Assembly: GCA_009773005.1 (NCBI GenBank)
Contig: WOUT01000028.1
Coordinates: 1 to 34,679 of the forward strand
Source of the DNA: Chloroflexota bacterium
GTDB lineage: Bacteria; Chloroflexota; Anaerolineae; Anaerolineales; Anaerolineaceae
Length of the DNA: 34,679 bases
Direction of reading: 5' to 3'
Shown: piece by piece, positions 16,399 through 22,438 of the stretch
How positions within the stretch are numbered: the first letter of the stretch is position 1
Layout of the letters: each line of letters opens with the position of its first letter
The notes under the pieces: model-generated
What the model was told of the DNA's origin: nothing
What the model saw: the letters and a program-made list of their open reading frames with translations, nothing else
The model's database searches: none
Translations under genes and position numbers: made by a program

Positions 16399-16779
16399 AT
16401 GTCTGATAAGCCGCTTACCGATAGACTCCAACTCAAACCTGGTAGATCGATCATTTTGCTTAATGAACCAAATGAATATCGCTCGCTTCTTGAGCCACTT
16501 CCCGAAGGGTCAAAGATACTGACCACCGAAAATAAAGCAGATATTGTTCAGGTTTTTGTGGACTCATTTACGGCCCTAAAAATGCAATTACCGCAAGCAT
16601 TCACAATGCTCAATCCAAACGGTATTCTCTGGGTCACCTATCCTAAACTGACTTCAAAAATGCGCAGCGATGTCAATCGGGATTCGATCTTTGAATACGG
16701 ATTGTCGCTCAGCTGGCAAGGTGTCAGTATGATCTCGGTCAATGAAGTTTGGTCAGCATTGAGAATGAAACCCAAATGA
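16399..16779 (+). CDS. DUF3052-like protein
   Basis: A 126-residue protein resembling the DUF3052 family. It has LKPGRSIILLNEP near the N-terminus, VQVFVDSF in the middle, PNGILWVTYPKLTSK, and the closing VNEVWSALRMKP. The family looks like a degenerate Rossmann/methyltransferase-like fold without a SAM motif, and its function is unknown. I chose ATG 16399, preceded by GGAGAAG; an upstream ATG at 16378 in the same frame lies inside the DUF1801 gene. The stop overlaps the tgt start (ATGA at 16776-16779), which implies coupling. Confidence 0.65.
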   Translation: MSDKPLTDRLQLKPGRSIILLNEPNEYRSLLEPLPEGSKILTTENKADIVQVFVDSFTALKMQLPQAFTMLNPNGILWVTYPKLTSKMRSDVNRDSIFEYGLSLSWQGVSMISVNEVWSALRMKPK

Positions 16780-17876
16780 AATCAAGAGCGCTAAGGCTTA
16801 CCCAGGGCGAGGTTCAGTCACCAATCTTCTTACCTGACGCAACCTTCGGGGTAGTCAGATCAGTTGATGCTGAAGATCTAATAGCGGTCGGTATTCAAGC
16901 CTTGGTGATGAATACTTTTCACTTGATGCAGCGCCCTGGTTCGTCTACCATCCAGGCGCTGGGTGGATTGCATCAAATGGCGCACTGGAAGAAAAACATC
17001 GTCACAGATTCCGGCGGGTTTCAGGCTTACTCTTTGATCCGGCAAAACCCCAGATTTGGTCGCATTCATGACAAAGGCATCATCTTTGCCCCTGAAGGCA
17101 GTTCACGCAAATTCCAGCTCACACCTGAAAAAACAATCCGACTGCAGATCAGTTACGGTTCAGATGTCGTGATCTGCTTGGATGACTGCACGCATGTGGA
17201 TGAGGGGTATAAAGCGCAATTAGAGTCGGTTGACCGTACCATTGCCTGGGCAAAAAAGAGCAAGAAAGAATACGCTATTCTGACCGATCAAAAGAAGTTG
17301 ACTGAGCAAACCCGCCCAAGGATTTATGCAGTCGTTCAGGGAGGTGGATACAAAGATCTGCGGTTAAAATGCGTTGAAGCCTTGCTTGAGATCGGTTTTG
17401 ACGGTTATGGTTACGGGGGCTGGCCGTTAGATAAAGACAACCATTTATTATCCGAGATCATCGGGTACACCCGCGAGATCGTCCCGGCTGAATATCATAT
17501 GCATGCTCTGGGTGTGGGTCACCCTGAGAACCTGCTGGCTTGTTTTGAATTGGGGTATGATATTTTTGACAGCGCCATGCCCACCAGGGATGCAAGGCAT
17601 GGACGTTTGTTCACGTTTAAAAACCCGTCTGATCCTAATGATTTCGGTTTGACAGGCGCCTGGTTTGGTTACAAATACATTAATGACGAAGAAAATATTA
17701 AGGCAAACCTTCCGATCAGCGCTTATTGTGATTGTCCCTGCTGCAAGAACTACTCGATGGGTTATCTACATCACCTCTTTAAACAAGGCGATGCGCTTTT
17801 CATGCGGTTAGCCACACTCCACAACCTGCGCTTCATGGTGCAACTGTGCGAACGAATTCAGAGAAAGTATGCATGA
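16776..17876 (+). CDS. tgt: tRNA-guanine transglycosylase family protein with unusual base pocket
   Basis: A 366-residue TIM-barrel enzyme that exchanges guanine 34 of tRNA(Asp/Asn/His/Tyr) for a queuosine base. The general acid/base Asp78 (TDSGGFQ), Gln188 (VVQGG), nucleophile Asp265 (DSAMPTRDARHG) and zinc ligands C318-x-C320-x2-C323 with H349 are all present, so catalysis should be intact. The base-recognition loop, GGLAVGE in bacterial preQ1 enzymes, is here GGWPLDK (214-220), so the glutamate and small residues that hold preQ1 are missing. The pocket may accept queuine or another 7-deazaguanine. The ATG overlaps the DUF3052 stop; an in-frame TTG at 16749 is less likely. A YhhQ-type precursor transporter lies 3 kb downstream, which supports salvage. 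Confidence 0.82.
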   Translation: MKSRALRLTQGEVQSPIFLPDATFGVVRSVDAEDLIAVGIQALVMNTFHLMQRPGSSTIQALGGLHQMAHWKKNIVTDSGGFQAYSLIRQNPRFGRIHDKGIIFAPEGSSRKFQLTPEKTIRLQISYGSDVVICLDDCTHVDEGYKAQLESVDRTIAWAKKSKKEYAILTDQKKLTEQTRPRIYAVVQGGGYKDLRLKCVEALLEIGFDGYGYGGWPLDKDNHLLSEIIGYTREIVPAEYHMHALGVGHPENLLACFELGYDIFDSAMPTRDARHGRLFTFKNPSDPNDFGLTGAWFGYKYINDEENIKANLPISAYCDCPCCKNYSMGYLHHLFKQGDALFMRLATLHNLRFMVQLCERIQRKYA

Positions 17877-18691
17877 TGATGCAGACTCCTGACGAACAAA
17901 TCGAAGAGTTGTTCCAGCAGGTTCGCGCCGCTGATAAATATTCCCATATTTTTCCCGAGCTCATCCGTGATTTGGGTAGAATTGAACTCTCAAAACGCCG
18001 CAACCTGAAAGAAGCAGTCAAAGCAACACGCAACAAATTACATCAGATCGGATCCGCATATCAAGAAAAACCCATCCCCTATGCAAAATGGCTTGAAGAA
18101 TTGCAACACTTGCCATCGACCTTTAACGCTCCTGTAACACTGAATTTTATTAAAGGCAATCTTGCAACGCACACATCAACAAACGAACGTCTGCCGATTA
18201 TTGAACGTTTTTTTGTTGAGACTTTAGCGCCAATTGCGCCAATCCATTCCATACTAGATTTGGCCTGTGGACTTACCCCGCTCGCATTGCCATGGATGCC
18301 CGTTTCTGACGATATTGTCTATTCGGCTTGTGATATATATCAGGATATGACCGATTATGTCAGGTCTTTTTTTACTCACTTTGGAGTAAACGGCGCTGTG
18401 AAAGTATGCGACCTAACAAAGACCGTTCCGCAGACCAGAGCACAGGTTGCCTTTCTCCTAAAAACAATTCCATGTCTTGAACAATTGGGCAAAAATGCTG
18501 GCAAGCGGTTGTTAGAGGAACTTCAAACCGATAATATCCTTGTTTCGTTTCCTGCTCATAGCTTGGGTGGAAGATCAAAAGGGATGGTCAAAAATTATGA
18601 GTCTCATTTTTCTGAACTCATACGCGGAAAGAATTGGAGGATCACTCGTTTTGAATTTCCTGGCGAATTAACCTTCATGATCCAGAAATAA
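17873..18691 (+). CDS. 16S rRNA m7G1405 methyltransferase family (FmrO/Sgm/Rmt-like)
   Basis: A 272-residue SAM methyltransferase matching the aminoglycoside-resistance family that methylates N7 of G1405 in 16S rRNA (Sgm, GrmA, ArmA, RmtA-H; about 250-280 aa). The N-terminal helical domain (1-95) is followed by H100-TSTNERLPI, the SAM motif DLACGLTPLALPWM (129-142), AFLLKTIPCLEQL (193-205) and SFPAHSLGGRSKGM (225-238). All are hallmarks of this family. Known members make 30S subunits resistant to gentamicin/kanamycin-type drugs. Asn of the usual CGLNP is Thr134 here. The start overlaps the tgt stop (ATGA) and lies inside a translation-modification operon, without transposon remnants. It therefore looks like a resident gene, not an acquired resistance cassette. 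Confidence 0.82.
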   Translation: MMMQTPDEQIEELFQQVRAADKYSHIFPELIRDLGRIELSKRRNLKEAVKATRNKLHQIGSAYQEKPIPYAKWLEELQHLPSTFNAPVTLNFIKGNLATHTSTNERLPIIERFFVETLAPIAPIHSILDLACGLTPLALPWMPVSDDIVYSACDIYQDMTDYVRSFFTHFGVNGAVKVCDLTKTVPQTRAQVAFLLKTIPCLEQLGKNAGKRLLEELQTDNILVSFPAHSLGGRSKGMVKNYESHFSELIRGKNWRITRFEFPGELTFMIQK

Positions 18692-18723
18692 TAATCTGTC
18701 AGATTAATGGAAAAATGATGTAA

Positions 18724-20217
18724 ATGAAACGAAAAACCAAATCTTTGCAAACCGCCATTTCCCCTGAATCCCAAATCGAACAGCAATTGGATCGATTTAA
18801 GCCCATGATCTCTCCGAAAGAGTTTATTAAATTACTGGCTGAGGTCAAAAAAACATTAATTCCTGCAATCCGTATCAATCCTCTAAAAACAAAACCTGGT
18901 TTTACCAAAACGTTGATCGATCAATATGGTTGGTCATTAACCACAATTCCTTATTGCCCAACCGGATACCGGGTGGAAACGATTCATAAACTATCAATCA
19001 GTTCCACGGTTGAGCATAAGACTGGCATGTACTATATTCAGGAAGCCGCCTCAATGCTGCCAGTGGAACTCTTCAATATCGGGCGCGAAACTGACGCACT
19101 CACCCTTGACCTTGCTGCTTCACCAGGTGGAAAGACAACGCACTTAATCGACCGTCAAAAAGATTCCGGGCTCGTGATCGCCAATGACTCAAGCCAGGGA
19201 CGCATCCAGGCGTTGAAAATCGTACTCCAACACTGGGGAGCGTGCAGCGCAGCAGTTACACGCTTTCCGGGTGAGAAATTTGGCGGTTGGTATCCGAATA
19301 CATTTGATCGAGCATTGATTGACGCCCCATGCAGTATGCAAGGTCTGAGGACTGCTGAATCTCACGCTTCACGTCCGGTGACCGACAAGGAAAGCCGGAC
19401 ACTTTCATTGCGCCAAATTGCACTATTGACAAGCTCGTTGCAGGCTGTGAGAGTGGGAGGAGAGGTCGTGTATTCCACATGCACGCTGCTGCCTGAAGAA
19501 GATGAAGGAGTTGTAGACGCATTCCTTTGCAGATATAACAAGTCGGTAAAATTATTAGAACAGCGGAAAATCCTCACCTCACCCGCGCCGGGCATTCAAA
19601 CCGTCGATGGGCAGGGTTACAAGCATTCCATGAAAAACACAATCCGTTTTTGGCCGCACCGCTACCAGACAGCCGGTTTTTTTGCTTGCATTTTTCAAAA
19701 AACCGGAGAGATAGACCTGCCAGTTCTTCGACCACCAGAACATTCCATGGAAAATGCAGGTTTCTACCAATTTTCAAGCGCGCAGCAAAAGCAATTTTCT
19801 ATCCTGTTCGAAAGTTGGTCAGGGTACCCATTGCAACATCACCTTGAAATCAACAATCGTGTTTTAGTACGGCGCAATGAACGAGTCTTTGTTTTCCCAC
19901 GCCTCTTGCTGGAAAGATTCCGAAGCCTGCCCGTCCAATCTGCCGGGATCCTTTTAGGTGAAGATGAACCTGACGGATTCGTCGTGTCACATGAATGGGT
20001 TTCTCGGTTCGGCGCGGAATGTCAAACAATCTGCATCACATTGGATGATGAACAGTTTCAATTTTATACACAGGGAGAGGATATTCCGGGTTATTCGGAT
20101 TGTCTGAAAACCAATTCAAACATTCGGGTGGTAATGGATTCTAATGAAAGGATATTAGGCAGGGGTAAGGTTTTTCGAGACCGGCTGAAAAATTTGTCGT
20201 TCCGCCAGTTCGCTTAA
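18724..20217 (+). CDS. RsmF-like RNA m5C methyltransferase (NOL1/NOP2/Sun family)
   Basis: A 497-residue protein with RsmF architecture. The N-terminal segment AIRINPLKTK (48-57) leads into GMYYIQEAASM, the SAM motif LDLAASPGGKTTHL (128-141), motif IV DAPCS with Cys203 and motif VI YSTCTL with the nucleophile Cys253. The C-terminal 200 residues look like the RsmF pre-PUA/PUA RNA-binding extension (VLVRRNERVFVFPRLLLERF). E. coli RsmF (479 aa) makes m5C1407 in 16S rRNA. Motif IV continues MQGLRT where most relatives have GEG, so the target cytosine is not certain. It follows the G1405-type methyltransferase gene by 32 bp, and its natural target is only two nucleotides away. It ends 4 bp from the convergent rsmE gene. 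Confidence 0.8.
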   Translation: MKRKTKSLQTAISPESQIEQQLDRFKPMISPKEFIKLLAEVKKTLIPAIRINPLKTKPGFTKTLIDQYGWSLTTIPYCPTGYRVETIHKLSISSTVEHKTGMYYIQEAASMLPVELFNIGRETDALTLDLAASPGGKTTHLIDRQKDSGLVIANDSSQGRIQALKIVLQHWGACSAAVTRFPGEKFGGWYPNTFDRALIDAPCSMQGLRTAESHASRPVTDKESRTLSLRQIALLTSSLQAVRVGGEVVYSTCTLLPEEDEGVVDAFLCRYNKSVKLLEQRKILTSPAPGIQTVDGQGYKHSMKNTIRFWPHRYQTAGFFACIFQKTGEIDLPVLRPPEHSMENAGFYQFSSAQQKQFSILFESWSGYPLQHHLEINNRVLVRRNERVFVFPRLLLERFRSLPVQSAGILLGEDEPDGFVVSHEWVSRFGAECQTICITLDDEQFQFYTQGEDIPGYSDCLKTNSNIRVVMDSNERILGRGKVFRDRLKNLSFRQFA

Positions 20218-20221
20218 GTGA

Positions 20222-20950
20222 CTACCCCAATTCGTAGATCACTAGCCCGGATGACATCATTGCGGCGGTTTCCATTCTTAATATTCGTTTTCCCAGGCTC
20301 ACTGAAATAAAACCTGCCTGTTTGGCAATATCAACTTCTTCTTTTGAGAAGCCTCCTTCTGGTCCAACAAACAGTTGGACATTTTTCCCTTGATGATTGC
20401 GAACTGCGTACTTGATTCCTGTTGTAACTTCGTCTTCCCATAAAATTAATTTCAGCGCATCGTTGGATTGCACGATTGACAGCGCTTTTATAAAACTCAA
20501 CGCTGGTAGCAAAACAGGGATTCTTCCACGGCGGCTTTGTTCGGCGGCTTCAATAATTATTTTTTTCCAGCGGGGATACTTCTCATGCACATCTTCTGGT
20601 TTCTGGATCAGACTGCGTGAGGTTGTAACCGGCAGGAAAGATGTTACTCCGATCTCGGTGCATTTTTGCAGGATCCATTCAAACTTTTCTCGTTGCGTTA
20701 AGCCCAGTATCAATGTCAATTTAGTTTCCGGTTCCCCCTGGGCAGGCTGCTGCTGGCGAACGACAGCCTTGCATTCGCGATCATTTACCTCACTAAGCGC
20801 GGCTATATACTCAAACCCCTGATCGTCCAGCAGGATCACCTCTGAACCAATCTCTAAGCGCAGAACTCGAGTCATTTGGCGTGAAAGTTCCGCAGGGATT
20901 GCAATCTCGTTTAAATGAAACTGGTCAGCAGAAAGAAAGAACCTGTGCAT
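20222..20950 (-). CDS. rsmE: 16S rRNA m3U1498 methyltransferase RsmE
   Basis: A 242-residue SPOUT-class methyltransferase. The N-terminal PUA-like domain begins MHRFFLSADQFHLNEIAIP. The SPOUT domain contains LTQREKFEWILQKCTEIGV, WKKIIIEAAEQSRRGRIP, FVGPEGGFSKEE and SLGKRILRMETA, the knotted SAM-binding end. All are RsmE signatures. RsmE methylates N3 of U1498, which faces the decoding site. It is transcribed convergently to the RsmF-like gene and divergently from the YhhQ gene, with its own clear promoter at 20981-21008. Confidence 0.93.
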   Translation of the reverse strand: MHRFFLSADQFHLNEIAIPAELSRQMTRVLRLEIGSEVILLDDQGFEYIAALSEVNDRECKAVVRQQQPAQGEPETKLTLILGLTQREKFEWILQKCTEIGVTSFLPVTTSRSLIQKPEDVHEKYPRWKKIIIEAAEQSRRGRIPVLLPALSFIKALSIVQSNDALKLILWEDEVTTGIKYAVRNHQGKNVQLFVGPEGGFSKEEVDIAKQAGFISVSLGKRILRMETAAMMSSGLVIYELG

Positions 20951-20980
20951 ACGGCTTATCCTGAAATAATGTGTAATTCG

Positions 20981-21008
20981 ATTATACTAGGGGCTAACAT
21001 TTTTTCAA
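20981..21008 (-). promoter_or_regulatory. rsmE promoter (TTGAAA-16-TATAAT)
   Basis: On the minus strand a -35 box TTGAAA (21008-21003) and a -10 box TATAAT (20986-20981) are separated by 16 bases, ending about 30 bases before the rsmE ATG at 20950. It is among the best matches to the sigma-70-type consensus in this window. It sits inside the short divergent gap to the YhhQ gene. Confidence 0.65.
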
Positions 21009-21023
21009 CAAAGGAATGGCAGT

Positions 21024-21749
21024 TTGAATAATTCTTCAGCACCAACAAGGTCTTATCGGTTTTTTGATCTGGTAATGGCAGCATTTGTAACAGTTTTAAT
21101 CGTGAGCAATATCGCTTCATCAGCCAAGATCGTGGATTGGGGATTTTCGTTATTTGGTCTGCGGCTCGCATTTGACGCTGGAACAATTCTGTTTCCGGTT
21201 AGTTATATTTTTGGTGACGTTTTAACTGAAGTATATGGTTTTAAGCGTTCTCGTCGTGTGATTTGGACCGGTTTTGCCTGTTTGGCTCTCTCCGCAGCAG
21301 TATTATGGCTCGTCCGCATCATGCCAGGCGAATCCACCTGGATTGCACAGACCGGTCAAACGGCTTACAACAACGTCTTGGGAGGAATCAGCACAGGTGG
21401 AATTGTGCTGGCTAGCCTTACGGCTTATCTGGCCGGTGAGTTTACAAACTCGGTCGTGCTTGCGAAGATGAAAGTTGCTACAAAAGGCCGCTGGTTATGG
21501 ATGCGCACAATTGGGAGTACGCTAGTCGGTCAGGGGGTTGACTCTCTCATTTTTATCACTGTTGCATGTCTTGCAGGTGTCTTTCCCTGGAGTTTATTCT
21601 TAACTTTAGTGGTTGCCAATTACGTCTTCAAGTGCTTGATTGAAGCGTTCATGACACCGGTTACCTATTGGATGGTCGCGAAACTGAAGTCCTCTGAAAA
21701 TGAAGATTTCTATGACGATAAAACCCGCTTCACTATTTTCTCAAAATAG
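21024..21749 (+). CDS. yhhQ: YhhQ-type queuosine precursor transporter
   Basis: A 241-residue membrane protein with about six helices, matching the YhhQ/QPTR (VUT) family that imports preQ0, preQ1 or queuine. Family features seen are NIASSAKIVDWG near helix 1, DAGTILFPVSYIFGDVLTEVYG, the acidic-aromatic signature after helix 2, GGISTGGIVLASLTAYLAGEFTNS, and GVDSLIFITVACLAG. Translation probably starts at TTG 21024, with AAAGGA about 8 bases upstream; the next ATG is 17 codons in and would clip the N-terminal tail. The divergent neighbour is rsmE. The transglycosylase gene 3 kb upstream is the likely user of the imported base. Confidence 0.88.
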   Translation: MNNSSAPTRSYRFFDLVMAAFVTVLIVSNIASSAKIVDWGFSLFGLRLAFDAGTILFPVSYIFGDVLTEVYGFKRSRRVIWTGFACLALSAAVLWLVRIMPGESTWIAQTGQTAYNNVLGGISTGGIVLASLTAYLAGEFTNSVVLAKMKVATKGRWLWMRTIGSTLVGQGVDSLIFITVACLAGVFPWSLFLTLVVANYVFKCLIEAFMTPVTYWMVAKLKSSENEDFYDDKTRFTIFSK

Positions 21750-21757
21750 AAATCGGT

Positions 21758-22438
21758 TCATTTCTCCCATTTAAAATCGGAACTCGCAATTACTACCGAA
21801 TATTCACCTCGCAAGTCTTCTTTTTGCAGATCAACGATCAATTGACTTAACATACTACGATAGACTGTCTCAAATTTCTTGGTCAAATCATTTGCCACAA
21901 CGACCGCGCGATCTCCGTAGACTTCCAATGAATCTTGCAAAAATACGATTAAGCGATGAGGGCTTTCATAAAATACAAGCGTATGCGGTGATTCCTTATC
22001 TATTTCCAGCCATCTTTTGCGGGGTCCGCCTTTTCTTGGTGGGAAACCTTTAAAAGTAAAACTATGGACTGGCAGCCCCGATAAAACCAAAGCCATAATC
22101 AGCGCGGTTGGTCCTGGAACCGCAGAGATTGGTATGCCACGTGAGATGGCGCTTCGCACCAAAATAAAACCTGGATCAGATATGGAAGGTGTACCTGCAT
22201 CTGTTACCAAAGCAACATTCTTACCCAAAGCCAGAATTTCCATTACCTTCGGTAAAGCGCGTTGCTCATTGTCTTCCCGAAATGAGATCTGCGGTTTTTT
22301 TATCCCAAAATGAGATAACAGGAATCCAGTTTTGCGGGTGTCTTCGCTGACGACCACATCAGCAGATTCAAGTGCGGCAAGTGCCCTTTGAGAAATATCC
22401 CCCAGATTTCCGATTGGTGTCGACACAAGAACAAGCAT
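21758..22438 (-). CDS. rsmI: 16S rRNA 2'-O-methyltransferase RsmI
   Basis: A 226-residue tetrapyrrole-methylase-fold enzyme that methylates the 2'-OH of C1402 in 16S rRNA. It shows the RsmI series [64 protein letters not shown] and FYESPHRL. It is slightly shorter than the E. coli protein (286 aa), lacking part of the C-terminal extension, as is common in shorter RsmI forms. The start has AAGGG upstream on the minus strand. It ends 8 bp from the convergent YhhQ gene. An extended -10 promoter (TGTTATACT, 22469-22461) lies 23 bp upstream of its ATG. Confidence 0.92.

Follow-up and report, generated by a model that had tools for sequence, protein, structure and literature searches.

A divergent tRNA-guanine transglycosylase paralogue found together with FmrO-type 16S rRNA methyltransferase genes in Chloroflexota

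The DNA analysed here, hereafter the window, is a stretch of 34,679 nucleotides (contig WOUT01000028.1, C67 in our numbering) from a 2.86 Mb draft genome of the Chloroflexota family Anaerolineaceae (GCA_009773005.1; 105 contigs, 97.5 % complete). Between positions 16776 and 22438 it carries an island of six genes, four for predicted 16S rRNA methyltransferases and two of queuosine-related families. The core of this island is a pair of adjoining genes, to which the other 16S methylase genes are accreted: TGT2, a divergent paralogue of tRNA-guanine transglycosylase (TGT), and FmrO1, a homologue of the Arm/Rmt/Sgm methyltransferases. The families of the two proteins, the paralogy and residue changes of TGT2, its one-way association with FmrO and the adjacency of the genes are observed; it is most likely that TGT2 works with FmrO on 16S rRNA rather than on G34 of tRNA. 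The two genes of the pair are as follows.

16776..17876, + strand: TGT2, divergent tRNA-guanine transglycosylase paralogue, 366 aa, with a GGWPLD motif; PF01702 306 bits
17873..18691, + strand: FmrO1, Arm/Rmt/Sgm-type 16S rRNA G1405 N7-methyltransferase homologue, 272 aa; PF07091 142 bits

Association of TGT2 with FmrO

FmrO was detected in 75 of the 298 genomes of one class draw and TGT2 (E<=1e-70) in 48, and all 48 are among the 75 FmrO-positive genomes. Elsewhere in the phylum (with G555 of the window's family added), FmrO was found in 46 of 46 TGT2-positive and in 0 of 34 TGT2-negative genomes, the former being the phylum-search positives outside the class draw and the latter a hand-picked, non-random choice from the same list. 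Many of the genomes surveyed are metagenome-assembled, so that an absence can be incompleteness. Each of seven families (f1, f60, f66, f67, f70, f75 and f93) includes both double-positive and double-negative genomes, although the double-negative genome of f60, G298, is just 66 % complete; the association is therefore not the outcome of one inheritance event. The pair is present in cultured Ktedonobacteria as well, and among its cultured carriers are Dictyobacter aurantiacus, D. kobayashii, D. arantiisoli, Tengunoibacter tsumagoiensis and Thermosporothrix hazakensis.

The two genes also tend to be neighbours, whichever of them is used to retrieve the locus: FmrO is present in 42 of 46 loci retrieved through TGT2 alone, and TGT2 in 69 of 80 loci retrieved through FmrO (the best 80 of 302, from GTDB species genomes). 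All loci, those retrieved through FmrO or taken from FmrO-positive genomes among them, were pooled into 129 non-redundant TGT2 loci, window included; in 111 of these the two genes lie on the same strand and at most 400 bp apart, FmrO being downstream of TGT2 in 102 and upstream in 9, with a median gap of 29 bp between tblastn matches. The TGT2-adjacent FmrO proteins fall in both deep halves of a midpoint-rooted FmrO tree. All ten genomes whose TGT2 locus is without FmrO carry FmrO elsewhere. The initial annotation had presented the six genes as a unit, but the best-conserved unit is the FmrO-TGT2 pair, which we regard as the core because TGT2 was found only with FmrO and adjoins it in most loci. 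As FmrO often occurs without TGT2, the dependence runs one way, of TGT2 on FmrO, which suggests that TGT2 needs the product or the site of FmrO.

FmrO with TGT2 was also seen on records labelled Bathyarchaeota (L237 3890-5789, CP070784.1), Njordarchaeota (L213), Poribacteria (L202) and Armatimonadota (L254), which may reflect horizontal transfer or binning errors. The 16S rRNA of the L202 genome is at most 75.7 % identical to the Chloroflexota 16S sequences compared, and this genome is therefore not close to them.

Sequence and structure of TGT2

The window's genome has two TGT genes. The canonical copy, TGT1, lies on another contig (G000:C87:8193-9248) and scores 512 bits with PF01702 against 306 for the window copy, so that the idea of the window TGT being the sole queuosine enzyme of the organism was rejected. 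TGT1 was found in the 75 class genomes that carry FmrO; 49 of these also have a TGT of the window kind (split in G138, a contig-edge fragment in G254), which is missing from the other 26, in some of which FmrO itself sits at a contig edge. A phylum search with the window protein gave two identity classes among the matches listed, 43-68 % (TGT2) and 34-39 % (canonical), and at least 54 of 301 genomes had TGT2 matches, a few of which are fragments. Mean identity in sampled pairs is 60 % within TGT2 and 35 % between TGT2 and TGT1, while E. coli Tgt is on average 51 % identical to Chloroflexota TGT1 and 36 % to TGT2.

The alignment of 119 TGT2 sequences with 36 TGT1 sequences and E. coli Tgt and the structure prediction described below show that the TGT fold, the two catalytic Asp residues and the zinc site are all present in TGT2. 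The catalytic Asp pair (nucleophile and general acid), Asp156, Gln203, Arg289 and His349 (Z. mobilis numbering) are invariant and Arg286 is kept in 117 of 119 sequences; in E. coli numbering, D89, D143, Q187, D264 and H333 occur in 119/119, and the zinc ligands Cys302, Cys304 and Cys307 in 118, 112 and 118, respectively. The dimer hot spot is retained too (Z. mobilis Tyr330 in 113/119, His333 in 119/119). TGT2 thus resembles bacterial Tgt (TIGR00430; Z. mobilis 1q2r, E. coli b0406) over the whole fold, yet differs from it not only in overall identity and in several insertions but also in the loop from Leu231 to Glu235, which reads W-P-L-D-x: Leu231 is replaced by Trp in 116/119, Ala at position 232 by Pro in 119/119, Val233 by Leu in 110/119 and Gly234 by Asp in 110/119, whereas Glu235, present in 36/36 TGT1, remains in 4/119 TGT2 and is Lys in the window protein. 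Leu231-Ala232 with Glu235 is described as the preQ1/guanine peptide switch of TGT in an excerpt of one study (PMC3660597), and that switch was not found in TGT2. Val45 is Asp in 118/119, Leu68 is Val or Gln in 114/119 and Val282 is Ala or Thr in 109/119; these three residues make up the pocket for ribose 34 and phosphate 35 according to an excerpt of another (PMC5395182). A further difference from bacterial Tgt is that TGT2 is present besides a canonical Tgt and was found only with FmrO.

The structure predicted by AlphaFold2 (AF2) has a mean pLDDT (predicted local distance difference test) of 93.9 and can be superposed on 1q2r, a covalent intermediate of TGT with RNA, with a VIA Z of 47.2 and a root-mean-square deviation of 1.4 over 342 residues, the VIA alignments being a second look at Foldseek matches that leaves other families possible. 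Since the catalytic residues are kept, the residues of the base and RNA pockets are changed and a confident model superposes on 1q2r, TGT2 looks like an enzyme that still exchanges bases but whose pockets for the base and the RNA are altered. With respect to the TIGR00430 cut-off of 306.75 bits, the window protein (303.6) and that of locus L146 (283.9) fall below and that of L209 (317.2) above. TGT enzymes are known to act on G34 or G15 of tRNA or, in the case of DpdA, the DNA 7-deazaguanine transglycosylase, on DNA; DpdA and archaeal TgtA are relatives with a re-specified nucleic-acid target. The models of these two give TGT2 much lower scores, 100 bits for TIGR00432 and 18.5 bits for NF041059 against the 303.6 bits with TIGR00430.

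As a separate observation, a TGT match in G033 (G033:C4:321798-322982) comes in two pieces that share a single open frame (438 codons), as would be expected from an insertion close to position 92 of the profile. Similarly broken TGT matches occur in families f35 and f41, the detail coming from G033.

Queuosine salvage and base supply

The initial annotation had linked the genes of the island through queuosine 34. This link was not supported, as the TGT concerned is the paralogue with its preQ1-sensing loop replaced, and QueA and the canonical TGT are encoded on contigs other than the window; the role at position 34 is most likely that of TGT1. The genome nevertheless resembles known QueA-TGT-YhhQ salvage systems in having YhhQ in the island, QueA elsewhere and no strong QueC match, though it differs from them in that TGT2 is without the preQ1 switch. 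A search of 80 genomes found QueA in 77, and one of a slightly different 80 found YhhQ in 71 (4 of the 71 being partial matches of ~50 bits), whereas strong QueC matches (>180 bits) were limited to 5 of 80, the window's genome not among them, with other rows at <=44 bits. The organism therefore probably salvages queuosine precursors. The island YhhQ, which reaches the TIGR00697 cut-off but scores 42.9 of the 252 bits set for the PRK11212 preQ0/preQ1 transporter model, has a second copy in the genome (at G000:C63) and can supply both TGT1 and TGT2.

This supply bears on the possibility that TGT2 is a second tRNA enzyme, inserting another 7-deazaguanine or exchanging guanine at G34, in which case the cluster would be an accretion of genes related to decoding, and FmrO and TGT2 would be co-regulated instead of sharing one RNA substrate. 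The fold, the catalytic residues, Arg286 and Arg289 and the dimer hot-spot residues all match a tRNA TGT, a base is available to it, and QueA adjoins TGT2 in 4 of the 129 loci. On the other hand, TGT1 is already there in the 75 FmrO-positive class genomes, and a second tRNA enzyme should not require FmrO, yet no TGT2 was seen without FmrO in the genomes surveyed. We consider tRNA a possible substrate of TGT2, and this explanation of the pair a rather unlikely one.

A second, divergent QueA paralogue (~250 bits) was seen in G181, G234, G244, G254 and G117, four of which are also among the five genomes with strong QueC.

FmrO1 and its paralogue FmrO2

FmrO1, the single PF07091 match in the window's genome, passes the cut-off of that family, carries its invariant motifs and is homologous to Sgm/Rmt enzymes over the full length, Sgm (3lcu) being the closest solved structure among the chains listed (E=8.5e-44, matched along its length). 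Its resemblance to the Arm/Rmt/Sgm (guanine1405-N7)-methyltransferases (PF07091, NF000466) has limits, however: the full-length match to NF000466 scores 209.3 bits, under the equivalog cut-off of 250, and six other FmrO-type proteins also fall below it (147.6 to 238.6 bits). Unlike the known enzymes, Chloroflexota FmrO is chromosomal, widespread, paired with TGT2 and sometimes present as two subfamilies in tandem. Genes of the Arm/Rmt type are hence ordinary chromosomal genes of a phylum, beyond their place as producer or plasmid resistance genes.

The decoding site is where aminoglycosides bind, and the pair might accordingly be a device of intrinsic aminoglycoside resistance or self-protection, FmrO blocking the drug at G1405 and TGT2 tuning the methylation or offsetting its cost. 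The closest solved structure, Sgm, is a producer's resistance enzyme; moreover, excerpts of a 2025 study (PMC12406665) report that in E. coli Arm/Rmt methylation changes fidelity and disturbs the action of RsmF on C1407, and an RsmF-like gene lies next to the pair in the window. The occurrence of FmrO in 75 of 298 class genomes and its conserved chromosomal context with TGT2 are, however, unlike an acquired resistance gene. We regard a resistance role as improbable, albeit compatible with joint action of FmrO1 and TGT2 on the decoding site.

Relatives have a second paralogue, FmrO2, between FmrO1 and RsmF (L033, L035, L064, L134, L229, L256, L262, L266, L267, L268 and L270), and it has apparently been lost from the corresponding 32-bp gap of the window. 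The FmrO2 clade comprises 26 sequences (support 99), which follow FmrO1 or adjoin RsmF, RsmE or RsmI. Tandem FmrO1-FmrO2 genes were noted in a number of Anaerolineae (L064 9402-11041; L267 4995-6638; L071 8639-10248). FmrO2 keeps the S-adenosylmethionine (SAM) motif and has FKExHR-type residues in place of LKxIPC of FmrO1; its target may differ from G1405.

Possible action on the decoding site

The initial annotation held that the methylase cluster is chemically coherent, and this was borne out. The four positions, C1402, G1405, C1407 and U1498, lie together in the A-site region of helix 44 (h44), and excerpts of the study cited above place the work of RsmF (C1407), RsmI/RsmH (C1402) and RsmE (U1498) near G1405 and A1408 (PMC12406665). 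All four bases are present in the 16S gene of the window's own genome, at positions presumed from a motif that we take to fix the numbering.

We propose that FmrO1 and TGT2 act on the same RNA, at the 30S decoding site, and that TGT2 exchanges a guanine there in dependence on FmrO1, a proposal that we hold to be evenly balanced between right and wrong. The island would have grown around this two-gene module: FmrO1 would methylate N7 of G1405 or of an equivalent G, TGT2 would swap a guanine base in the same RNA once FmrO1 has acted, YhhQ could provide a 7-deazaguanine base, and RsmI, RsmF, RsmE and FmrO2, whose known or predicted substrate is 16S rRNA, may have joined the cluster in some Anaerolineae. 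The decoding site of the 30S subunit appears the likeliest substrate of TGT2 because 16S methylases are its recurrent neighbours. Here we infer 16S rRNA as the RNA, the incoming base, the order of the steps and any effects on decoding or aminoglycoside binding.

Several points weigh against this proposal. FmrO is not adjacent to TGT2 in 18 of the 129 loci (8 with FmrO farther off, 10 with none in the locus), and 27 of the 75 FmrO-positive class genomes, counting G254 with its contig-edge fragment, are without a full TGT2. The target of FmrO1 is assigned by homology, as the NF000466 cut-off is missed. Arg286 and Arg289, kept beside the nucleophile, would fit an anticodon loop with U-G-U as well, and the QueA genes next to some TGT2 genes hint at preQ1-RNA. 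We know of no report of any TGT acting on rRNA and met none in this analysis. Lastly, the 5' strand of h44 showed no difference between TGT2-positive and TGT2-negative genomes (it could be read in 22 of 23 rows, from 21 genomes; the pattern landed elsewhere in the row of G213, and the 3' strand was not found in G010), and being the same in both, the decoding-site sequence gives no independent support.

A more specific form of the proposal is a two-step base exchange on the ribosome, in which FmrO would N7-methylate G1405 and TGT2 would remove the m7G and insert either a 7-deazaguanine obtained through YhhQ or guanine, acting in the latter case as an eraser. N7-methylguanine is a better leaving group, so that methylation by FmrO would make the G1405 base a good one, and the TGT2 pocket has Trp231 and Asp234 where the preQ1 switch would be. 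The idea rests on this leaving-group chemistry and on these two residues that the pocket has gained; as a speculation, it would explain the dependence of TGT2 on FmrO, and we think it unlikely. If true, a decoding site of 16S rRNA that contains a 7-deazaguanine, or an enzyme that erases m7G from rRNA, would, to our knowledge, be without precedent.

A separate TGT family that has lost the preQ1 switch, and that was found only in genomes with a methyltransferase gene of the 16S type, points to a new RNA modification, plausibly in the decoding site. Broad queries of the open-access literature, with part of the results covered, gave no link between TGT and a 16S methylase and no FmrO in Chloroflexota; in open-access papers with both 'tRNA-guanine transglycosylase' and 'G1405', the terms stood in unrelated places.

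Gene layout and wider neighbourhood

Profile searches (Pfam, NCBIfam) located all six gene families where the initial annotation had put them. The features around the pair are listed below.

16399..16779, + strand: X126, 126 aa, start ATG at 16399; ATGA overlap between its stop and the start of TGT2
18692..18723, + strand: 32-bp gap, site of FmrO2 (second FmrO paralogue) in relatives
18724..20217, + strand: RsmF-like, predicted 16S rRNA m5C1407 methyltransferase, 497 aa; PF01189 and PF17125; NF008898 E=5e-77
20222..20950, - strand: RsmE, predicted 16S m3U1498 methyltransferase, 242 aa; PF04452, TIGR00046 160 bits (cut-off 41)
21024..21749, + strand: YhhQ-type queuosine-precursor transporter, start TTG; PF02592, TIGR00697 110.3 bits (cut-off 51)
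21758..22438, - strand: RsmI, predicted 16S Cm1402 methyltransferase, 226 aa; TIGR00096 226.7 bits (cut-off 167.9), model positions 1-222 of 275

The first three genes had been described as coupled by ATGA overlaps. This holds for X126, TGT2 and FmrO1 (overlaps at 16776-16779 and 17873-17876) but not for RsmF, which follows FmrO1 after 32 bp. As RsmF has no overlap with FmrO1 and RsmE and RsmI lie on the minus strand, the island is not a single operon. No long repeats were found near it, and promoter and terminator scans gave about as much as shuffled sequence. X126 had no match in Pfam or NCBIfam and, occurring in 2 of 129 TGT2 loci (window counted), is outside the conserved core.

The RsmF-like protein matches NF008898, its best NCBIfam model, nearly over the full length with 259 bits, short of the equivalog cut-off of 588. 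RsmE, the single match in the genome, satisfies the subfamily model TIGR00046 but stays below the cut-off of every PRK11713 equivalog model listed, the nearest with 193.1 of 196 bits; its site is therefore assigned by homology. There are two RsmI-type genes above the TIGR00096 cut-off, the other at G000:C60:22714-23394 with 180 bits.

Among the 129 loci, which are of unequal length, RsmI is found in 42 (in 33 of these it is 5' of TGT2, and the centres of the two genes are mostly separated by 0.9-1.1 kb), RsmF in 18, RsmE in 14 and YhhQ in 12; RsmI, RsmF and RsmE occur together in 9, window counted. Conservation in relatives, whose lack would have spoken against the cluster, is clear: L267 (Anaerolineaceae UBA2260) shares ten genes in the same order with the window (MFS-DUF1801-X126-TGT-FmrO-RsmF-RsmE-YhhQ-RsmI-RR) and has an extra FmrO2, and L064 has YhhQ-RsmI-TGT2-FmrO1-FmrO2-RsmF-RsmE on one strand. 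Since further genera of family f1, and family f57 as well, have the cluster too, the clustering exceeds chance. The modest counts for the four outer genes are what a coincidental gene order in slowly rearranging Chloroflexota, with no functional link, would lead one to expect, and for YhhQ and RsmE coincidence may be the explanation. For FmrO and TGT2 it is already disfavoured by the co-occurrence of the two even where they are not adjacent, by the existence of both gene orders and by the seven families with both double-positive and double-negative genomes; overall, we consider mere coincidence very improbable. Clustering of the neighbours in the 129 loci (top 28 clusters, without profile annotation) gave no cluster absent from the window with more than 12 loci, except cluster 2 (36 loci); this cluster being chimeric and the clusters unannotated, weak partners may be missed.

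Two further arrangements were observed beside TGT2. In L033 (7224-7826) and L035 (7103-7705), an RsmI-like gene with 34-36 % identity to the window RsmI lies directly upstream of TGT2, and a close RsmI homologue is found at the opposite end of the island. A divergently transcribed RsmF-like gene (27-32 % identical to that of the window) stands beside TGT2 in L181-L183, L214, L218, L220, L225, L228, L236, L248 and L258; the one scanned, from L182, has the Thermus RsmF model as its best match.

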